In this document: one piece after another, positions 56,866 through 58,561 of the stretch
Numbering within the stretch: position 1 is the stretch's first letter
Layout of the letters: each line of letters starts with the position of its first letter
Source: Seonamhaeicola sediminis
GTDB lineage: Bacteria > Bacteroidota > Bacteroidia > Flavobacteriales > Flavobacteriaceae
Direction: 5' to 3'
Length of the DNA: 64,000 nucleotides
Assembly (NCBI RefSeq): GCF_004358095.2
Contig: NZ_SMZJ02000002.1
Coordinates: 186,001-250,000 of the forward strand
The notes under the pieces: model-generated
What the model saw: the letters and a program-made list of their open reading frames with translations, nothing else
What the model was told of the DNA's origin: nothing
The model's database searches: none
Program-made: the position numbers and the translations under genes

Positions 56866-57297
56866 ATGTCAATTTCAGATTTATTTGATAGTGGGTTTAA
56901 AAAGCGTAACGAAGATCATTTTGCTGCTATTGTAAGAGTGGCTATGGCCGATGGCGTGATTACAGAGGAGGAAAAAGCTTTTTTAGATAGATTAGCACAA
57001 AGGTTGAATATTAATGAAGGGGATTACAAAGCTATTTTAAAAGATTATAATTCACATCCAATAAATCCGCCTGTGGCTTATGATGATAGATTAGAGCGTT
57101 TATATGACTTAGTACGTATGATTCATGTAGATACTATTACTGGGGAACCAGAAATGCTCCTTTTAAAGAAAATTGGTGTTGGACTTGGCTTTCATGCAGT
57201 AAACGTAAAATATATTATTGATAAAGCAATCTCTCTTGTAAACCAAGGGGTTGATTTAGACACTTTTGTTGATGCTATAAAGAATATGAACAGATAG
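56866..57297 (+). CDS. TerB-family protein
   Basis: A 143-residue helical protein of the TerB/DjlA-like type: HFAAIVRVAMADGVITEEEKAFLDRLA carries the typical Ala-Asp-Gly and Glu-Glu-Glu metal-binding pattern (key residues near 31-40). TerB proteins bind divalent metal and are tied to tellurite resistance and stress; no other ter genes are here, so a general stress or membrane role is more likely. It forms a single-gene unit with a promoter and terminator. Confidence 0.85.
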   Translation: MSISDLFDSGFKKRNEDHFAAIVRVAMADGVITEEEKAFLDRLAQRLNINEGDYKAILKDYNSHPINPPVAYDDRLERLYDLVRMIHVDTITGEPEMLLLKKIGVGLGFHAVNVKYIIDKAISLVNQGVDLDTFVDAIKNMNR

Positions 57298-57320: not shown

Positions 57321-57354
57321 AAAGCGTCCAACAAATGTTGGACGCTTTTTTTTT
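57321..57354 (+). terminator. Terminator of the TerB-like gene
   Basis: A perfect 12-bp stem (57321-57332 with 57337-57348), AAAT loop, then a long T run. Confidence 0.9.
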
Positions 57355-57537
57355 GAAAAAATTTAGAATTAAATGAATAAAAATTTAAAAATCTAAAATA
57401 TAAGACTTTGGAGTGTAAGCAACTGAGAGACAAACTTTTGCAAAAACCCCAATTATCTGCTGAAAAGCGGACAGGAATTCCTTTATCTAGATTTTATTTT
57501 AACTATTTGATTATCAACAAATTAAATTGAATAAAAT
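57355..57537. other. AT-rich intergenic sequence
   Basis: No gene or strong hairpin is visible. A short stretch near 57448-57475 (CTGCTGAAAAGCGGACAG) is locally richer in GC and may be a worn repeat. Confidence 0.4.
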
Positions 57538-57846
57538 TTTGTTTGTAAAGAAAAAGATTTAATCTTTGCATCGCAGTTATTGTAAAGAGCCTGCAACAAG
57601 AAATAATAATTATTTTGTTGTGTGTTTTAGAGAACACTTCAACATCAATCTGTGTAACAAATAATATATTCCTGAGCCAAGTTCAGGATAAAAAAGAAGC
57701 CATGTTAAAACATAGTACATTCATTTTGGATAGGTATAGTGACCTAAAGTCATTCATGAAGCTTCGGTGTTTTCTGCCTACCTACTTTAAGTAGGTATAT
57801 TTTTCAGAAAAGAATCCGAAGCAAGACAACTGTTTCGGATTTTTTA
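57538..57846 (+). ncRNA. Structured leader RNA or free-standing RNA with attenuator-like end
   Basis: TTTG (57538-57541), 19 bases, AATCTTTG (57561-57568) form a promoter. The transcript from about 57573 has hairpins at 57594-57622 and 57671-57687. A stacked hairpin follows at 57761-57822: 57761-57767 with 57816-57822, 57770-57776 with 57805-57811, and 57779-57785 with 57791-57797. A terminator stem (57813-57820 with 57834-57841, then T) uses the same strand as the first helix, so only one of the two can form. A 30-codon frame (57702-57794) runs into the stacked hairpin. It lies before the TPR gene at 57980. Confidence 0.55.
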
Positions 57847-57979
57847 TTCCTAGAGAAATTATTTCCGATTCAATTAAAATCACACAATTATGTGGTCTAG
57901 AATCACATGTAAAAGATTAATGATTAGGATGATTATGCAATACTGATTGTACATATCATCTAAGAAAATATTTATAACA
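57847..57979. other. Stretch between the leader terminator and the TPR gene
   Basis: Contains no frame above noise and no second promoter that fits the -7 consensus well, which is why transcription of the TPR gene from the 57.54 kb promoter seems likely. Confidence 0.4.
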
Positions 57980-58561
57980 ATGAAAACTAATTTACATAAC
58001 TTATATTTATTTAGAGCTATTGAAGCCTACCCATACGAATTAGAAAAAACTGCCGAAGCATTAAATTATGCTCTGGCGTATGATTCTGAAAATGTAATAG
58101 CTTTATGCTTAATGGCTAAACTACAAAGTGAGCAATTGGGTGATTACAGAACTGCTAAAGCATTTTACGAAAAGGCTATTGCAAGCAATATGGATATGAC
58201 TGATATATATCCAGATTACTCAAGACTTTTAGTGAATAATGGCGATTATACTGAAGCCCAAAAATTAATAGATTTTGCTTTAACTATTAAAGGAATAGAT
58301 AAAGCTGCTATTCTATTAAACCAAGGTTATTTATTTGAAGCACTAAATGAATTTGAAAAAGCCGAGGAAGCACTTGAAAATTCCAAAATGGTTGCATTAA
58401 ACAATGACTTTATTTATTATGTTGATGAAGTCATTAAACGTGTAAACAAAAAAAGGAAAATTCAGAACAATAAAAATCGAGTTAAAGAAACCCAAGAATC
58501 TGCGAAAGCTGAAACTTCAAAAACAAATTGGTTTCAAACTAGATTAAATAACTTGTTGTAA
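57980..58561 (+). CDS. TPR-repeat protein, unknown
   Basis: A 193-residue soluble protein. I use the ATG at 57980; an in-frame TTG at 57947 would add 11 residues that do not look like a signal peptide. Four or five TPR-like helix pairs fill residues 5-150 (ALAYDSENVIALCLMAKL, YRTAKAFYEKAI, DYTEAQKLIDFAL), followed by a basic, Asn/Lys-rich tail. TPR proteins bind other proteins; the partner is unknown. It is interesting mainly for the long structured leader upstream. Confidence 0.82.
   Translation: MKTNLHNLYLFRAIEAYPYELEKTAEALNYALAYDSENVIALCLMAKLQSEQLGDYRTAKAFYEKAIASNMDMTDIYPDYSRLLVNNGDYTEAQKLIDFALTIKGIDKAAILLNQGYLFEALNEFEKAEEALENSKMVALNNDFIYYVDEVIKRVNKKRKIQNNKNRVKETQESAKAETSKTNWFQTRLNNLL

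Follow-up and report, generated by a model that had tools for sequence, protein, structure and literature searches.

A 64,000-nucleotide stretch of the Seonamhaeicola sediminis genome (the window) carries, ahead of a gene for a tetratricopeptide repeat (TPR) protein, a leader RNA that belongs to a real and conserved attenuator family. This conclusion is well supported by comparison among relatives; the kind of mechanism is known, and the family and its target are new, being undescribed in Rfam and in the literature that could be searched. The best explanation, in which we have considerable confidence, is a ribosome-mediated transcription attenuator. It very probably switches on genes for ribosome and RNA repair when a ribosome becomes stuck, which we infer without RNA or reporter data.

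Layout and predicted folding of the leader

The leader lies between a TerB-like gene (56866–57297) and the TPR gene (57980–58561); the TPR gene, the parts of the leader with its promoter, and the two elements described farther upstream are on the + strand. Its promoter (57538–57568), read from the sequence, consists of TTTG (57538–57541), a 19 nt spacer and AATCTTTG (57561–57568), where the initial annotation had placed it. The promoter consensus is TAnnTTTG (PMC9723704), and in the window the −7 box begins with A rather than the consensus T. Transcription is expected to start at about 57573, as judged from the promoter position in the absence of transcript data. Relatives keep this promoter box upstream of the leader, and the 5′ part of the leader (57573–57695) varies among them.

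Segment 1, GAAGCC (57696–57701), abuts the ATG of a 30-codon upstream open reading frame (uORF; MLKHSTFILDRYSDLKSFMKLRCFLPTYFK) that runs from ATG at 57702 to TAG at 57794 and is found at the same place in relatives. Within the uORF lies segment 2, GCTTCGG (57761–57767), which can pair either with segment 1 (helix 1:2) or with segment 3, CCGAAGC (57816–57822; helix 2:3, the antiterminator). The upper part of the antiterminator (57770–57811) pairs TTTTCTG (57770–57776) with CAGAAAA (57805–57811) and encloses an inner hairpin (57779–57797). Segment 3 can instead pair with segment 4, GTTTCGG (57832–57838), which together with an A and six Ts (57840–57845) makes up the 3′ arm of an intrinsic terminator (57832–57845; helix 3:4). 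Sequence and computed fold agree that the three helices are mutually exclusive. The initial annotation had proposed both the 30-codon frame and the choice of segment 3 between segments 2 and 4, and each proved correct on direct reading; segment 1, which it lacked, completes a four-segment layout of the trp type.

By computation, the 2:3 hairpin alone (57761–57822) has a free energy of −24.0 kcal/mol and the terminator alone −14.0 kcal/mol, and none of 200 dinucleotide shuffles folds as well as the leader (z −4.9 for 57573–57850; z −3.6 for 57690–57850). When the window RNA was folded stepwise, 1:2 formed first, 2:3 once segment 3 had emerged, and then 3:4. These alternatives suggest how the leader may work. 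Normally, a ribosome would reach the end of the uORF and block 2:3, so that 3:4 would form and transcription would stop before the TPR gene; with no ribosome, 1:2 pairing would lead to the same outcome. A ribosome stalled early in the uORF would cover segment 1 and leave segment 2 free to pair with segment 3; the terminator would then form too late to prevent transcription of the downstream gene.

We then estimated terminator formation with assumed ribosome footprints, as equilibrium probabilities. For the window RNA ending at 57840, the terminator probability was 0.84 with no ribosome present, 0.24 when a ribosome occupied the AUG and 1.0 when it was at the stop codon; at 57846 it was near 1 in all states. 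Across 77 leaders, the corresponding means just before the U tract were 0.68, 0.32 and 0.98, and two bases later 0.87, 0.67 and 0.98. The calculation thus favours read-through most when the ribosome is at the uORF start. In an earlier run with the whole terminator, the states differed hardly at all, and the cut-off point for the 77 leaders was picked afterwards. As the difference shrinks while the terminator grows, the outcome depends on timing, and kinetics are not in the model.

Conservation, covariation and reading frame in relatives

The leader was found upstream of all 78 TPR loci that had upstream DNA, and directly before the TPR gene in 66. This count rests on the best 80 of 126 relatives, two of the 80 loci having no upstream DNA, and is not a fully independent test because some of the genomes also contributed to the covariance model. 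The recognised leaders share the promoter, a uORF that begins a few bases downstream of GAAGCC (or one of its variants) and has CUUCG close to its end, then CCGAAG, and UUUCGG with Ts behind it. In the upstream DNA examined for the most distant TPR relatives, such a terminator was not seen; several of these relatives carry it farther upstream, before rtcB or prfH. A first covariance model, built from 35 leaders, had matches in 44 of 299 genomes of the family, the weakest of which (e.g. loci L142–L146) have no leader-type uORF and are probably ordinary terminators. A second model, built from 52 matches, had hits in 77 of the 396 genomes searched from the order, in the family of the window and in two families labelled f5 and f13, the former of which we infer is probably Weeksellaceae; two rows of its training set are doubtful, a reverse-strand match in L047 and L006 341–470. 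Across 395 sampled genomes of the phylum, all 24 matches fell within the order of the window. The L006 row (minus strand) is a second leader-like copy downstream of the TPR gene in genome G002, with the uORF MITKCVIQIFDCGCSSHIKLRLFCK.

The initial annotation would have been refuted had neither conservation nor covariation of its helices been seen in relatives; both were. Terminator and protector (1:2) pairs were formed in 92.4% of the cells tabulated for the 35 leaders, a level that none of 500 shuffles reached. The protector helix by itself was paired in 83% of cells, is weak in one subgroup and is broken at one pair or more in about a quarter of the set. The 2:3 core is nearly invariant in these 35 leaders and therefore says little there; at one position, a C-G pair of the antiterminator corresponds to a G-U pair retained in the terminator. 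Among distinct relatives, the end pair fits in 53 of 55 cases for 1:2, 57 of 63 for 2:3 and 55 of 63 for 3:4, levels reached in 0 of 5000 shuffles for each helix; these shuffles ignore relatedness. The words flanking segments 2, 3 and 4 change together (GAC/GTC/GAC, GGC/GCC/GGC, GGT/ACC/GGT and GAT/ATC/GAT), and in leaders without a bulge after CUUCG, including that of the window, the flank beyond the core is unpaired.

Segment 2 lies in the uORF frame, where it is read as Leu-Arg, in 77 of 80 leaders, the exceptions being L147, L198 and L202. This figure follows a revised assignment of segment 2; the first rule had given 71 of 80, with five leaders misassigned via another CTTC. L200 is counted as in frame, yet its uORF stops just before segment 2, and rtcB is split at that locus. 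By eye, GTG replaces ATG in L190 and L193, both outside the 80. The uORF thus meets the sequence criterion of spanning segments 1 and 2, translation itself being inferred. Its peptide is only weakly conserved: independent pairs gave 15 silent against 38 changing differences, i.e. 28% against the 21.5% expected, and therefore the position of the ribosome rather than the peptide seems to matter. That ribosome movement could choose the fold, as initially proposed, draws support from the conservation, the covariation and the preserved frame, its function in cells remaining an inference.

The repair operon and its surroundings

When the leader does not adjoin the TPR gene, the genes behind it are in most cases prfH-TPR or rtcB-(NTase)-prfH-TPR, which a PcfJ-like gene sometimes precedes. 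In 20 newly fetched loci found with the second model, rtcB was downstream in all 20, prfH in 19 and TPR in 17, and in every case the leader precedes rtcB accompanied by prfH and/or the NTase gene. Among these loci, the contig of L195 runs out behind the NTase gene, the stretch available for L210 ends at prfH, and no TPR gene was found in L202. Four PrfH operons fetched via the protein have the leader before rtcB. Other contexts are an SPFH gene behind the leader in L133 and a TPR/histidine-kinase-like gene in L135. An SPFH/Band 7 gene was seen near the leader or operon at L133 1982–3085 (in the orientation of the leader) and L204 5229–6002. Operons of prfH and rtcB with TPR and NTase genes were already known (PMC6514570). 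From the order of the genes, the assignment of the leader to this rtcB-prfH-TPR repair operon is supported. The genes it would switch in relatives are those for the RNA ligase RtcB, the rescue release factor PrfH and the TPR protein, and in the window the TPR gene only.

In the window genome, rtcB and prfH, met downstream of the leader in many relatives, were not found: there is no rtcB, and a PrfH search gave only RF1/RF2-like matches below the cut-off. The TPR gene there is therefore either a remnant or working alone. It encodes 193 aa with Pfam TPR matches, predicted by AlphaFold2 as an all-helical, plain TPR solenoid (pLDDT 90); the nearest named relative of the protein, from Seonamhaeicola aphaedonensis, is 91% identical, and PADLOC and NCBIfam gave it no convincing name. 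TIGR03073, the model for PrfH-linked RtcB, had no match in 296 genomes, and the RtcB of these operons is on that ground probably another branch; Pfam RtcB does match it.

Upstream of the promoter is a conserved element (element U, 57400–57510) with the hairpin TCTGCT-GAAA-AGCGGACAGG, the stem of which varies in sequence among relatives with its pairing kept. It is also present in L004–L007, L033–L041, L048–L051, L059, L062, L064 and L065, and has no Rfam match. In L045–L047, L052, L053 and L055–L058, its place upstream of the leader is taken by an inverted repeat that is itself conserved (TTAATACTTCGTATTAA, with close variants). Farther upstream, a terminator (AAAGCGTCCAAC...GTTGGACGCTTT with a T-run, 57321–57348) ends, in relatives, a second uORF unit, uORF-A, whose place in the window is occupied by the TerB gene. 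The uORF-A unit, with a peptide like MRKTTVHIAPKSLICQWDYRG and the motifs GGACG and GCGTCC/GGACGC, is present in L034, L036, L038, L041, L048, L218–L235 and others, and copies in L062, L251, L266 and L268 carry stops.

Several relatives have, after the operon, up to 19 tRNA genes preceded by two more uORF units. These arrays cover most isotypes and lie downstream of the TPR gene at L271 7195–9211, L275 6876–8943, L254 8200–9930, L136 5122–5929 and L288 9521–10434; the two extra units were read in all of these with the exception of L288, which was not included. A gene for tRNA-Tyr (GTA) was also seen shortly downstream of the TPR gene at L204 4493–4577 (locus strand +), L273 5977–6061, L264 6045–6129, L294 6056–6140, L287 5692–5775 and L293 5785–5868.

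Rival readings, the signal and its meaning

Conservation, covariation, frame and gene context are observed; in the absence of expression data, stalling as the signal, the direction of control and function in cells are inferred only, and other readings of the leader have to be weighed. It might house a drug-specific arrest peptide, the ribosome stalling on a macrolide-like drug at Arg-Leu-Arg, as in erm leaders. RLR is a known macrolide arrest motif, and R/K-L-R occurs near the end of many of the uORFs. We nevertheless consider this reading improbable and reject the motif, because the Leu-Arg is dictated by the pairing of segment 2 (CUUCG); the motif is moreover missing from many leaders (MLRDYR, SLRGF, ILRGLF), the peptide is hardly conserved, and a stall at that point would, we infer, cover segment 2 and favour termination. 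A ligand-binding riboswitch or protein-controlled attenuator, with an incidental uORF, would also show alternative terminator and antiterminator folds, and no RNA data exclude a ligand. That reading has to contend with a uORF frame preserved despite very different sequences, with variable sequence between the segments in place of a conserved aptamer-like core, and with the lack of an Rfam match, and we think it very improbable. The failure of the initial annotation to recognise a known riboswitch class was borne out by a search of the leader against Rfam 15, which gave no match at the gathering score; searches at E-values up to 10 added only chance-level matches, and Rfam on the loci of six relatives gave a single match, Flavo-1, outside the leader.

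An attenuator specific for one amino acid, like those of the trp or his leaders, would have the identical four-segment layout, and attenuation by a leader peptide has been inferred for Flavobacterium (PMC9723704). It would, however, call for a run of codons for one amino acid, none of which was seen in the uORF lists checked by eye, and the downstream genes are not biosynthetic, so that it seems highly improbable. Least probable of all is a stand-alone small RNA with its own terminator that does not control the TPR gene. A terminated RNA of about 270 nt is expected under either model; against independence stand the position of the leader before TPR, rtcB or prfH in nearly all sampled loci, and the covariation of the antiterminator. 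Nor is the RNA 6S, the free RNA that the initial annotation had offered as its alternative: neither the 6S nor the 6S-Flavo model (RF00013, RF01685) matches the leader, in which Rfam finds nothing convincing, and a 6S-Flavo identity was rejected, that RNA of the genome lying on another contig (G000:C4:44492–44600). The ribosome-mediated attenuator is accordingly preferred over a free RNA.

What would stall the ribosome is less certain. It is possible, and we put it forward only tentatively, that the leader responds to tRNA trouble in general: with many different amino acids in its uORF, the lack or cleavage of any one tRNA would stall the ribosome and turn on a kit for RNA repair and ribosome rescue, which in some relatives ends in the array of up to 19 spare tRNA genes with uORF units of its own. 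The 49 uORFs less than 50% identical to one another use a mean of 14.67 different amino acids, compared with 13.58 for M plus real protein windows (reached in 0 of 2000 sets) and 13.63 for the pooled composition (0 of 3000). Without M and the tail, representatives below 25% identity have 13.12 types against 11.13 and 11.51. The gain is smaller against other frames of the same DNA (13.8 versus 12.9–13.0), the uORF being higher in 20–22 and lower in 11 of the 41 cases. The direction stayed the same with each of the several cut-offs and backgrounds applied; the idea was drawn from these same sequences, so that an independent set is needed. In uORF-A, the peptides use 17–20 of the 20 amino acids (mean 18.8 versus 15.9; 17 representatives of 25–60 residues, an 18th, L266, which a stop shortens to 15 residues, being excluded by the length filter). 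The diversity in relatives is a hint that the shortage of any tRNA could be sensed; this signal is absent from the uORF of the window itself, which is not diverse, with 13 types among its 30 residues.

Among the closest known systems is the vmlR leader of Bacillus subtilis, with its uORF, anti-antiterminator, antiterminator and intrinsic terminator, where read-through follows from a stalled ribosome and translation defects also induce (PMC9226507); that leader serves an antibiotic-resistance ABCF protein in Firmicutes, whereas the present one is of another sequence family, in Flavobacteriales, before rtcB, prfH and TPR genes. The trp-type attenuators share the 1:2, 2:3 and 3:4 pairings and a uORF across segments 1 and 2, and differ in having a control-codon run and in lacking repair genes downstream. 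As in Escherichia coli topAI, where the toiL uORF responds to ribosome stalling of several kinds, a single uORF may be the sensor of such stalling here; the targets of toiL are translation and Rho termination, without an intrinsic terminator route (PMC12121999). RtcB repair operons are also induced by RNA damage through RtcR, a protein activator of rtcBA that binds tRNA fragments; the abstract describes no leader RNA (PMC7790460). The RFH/prfH-RtcB operons with TPR and NTase genes reported in PMC6514570 and PMC9223846 are of the same kind as those found here. A word search of these two papers and PMC1586002 found no mention of a leader or attenuator, and how rtcB-prfH repair operons are switched on is not stated in the accessible literature.

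For the lone TPR gene of the window, the leader suggests a role in ribosome or RNA repair. In genomes more widely, it marks repair operons and possibly arrays of spare tRNAs, and it would serve as a ready reporter of translation damage, for which the phylum has few tools. If the proposed mechanism is true, many flavobacteria couple the repair of ribosomes and tRNAs directly to a stuck ribosome, with no regulatory protein.
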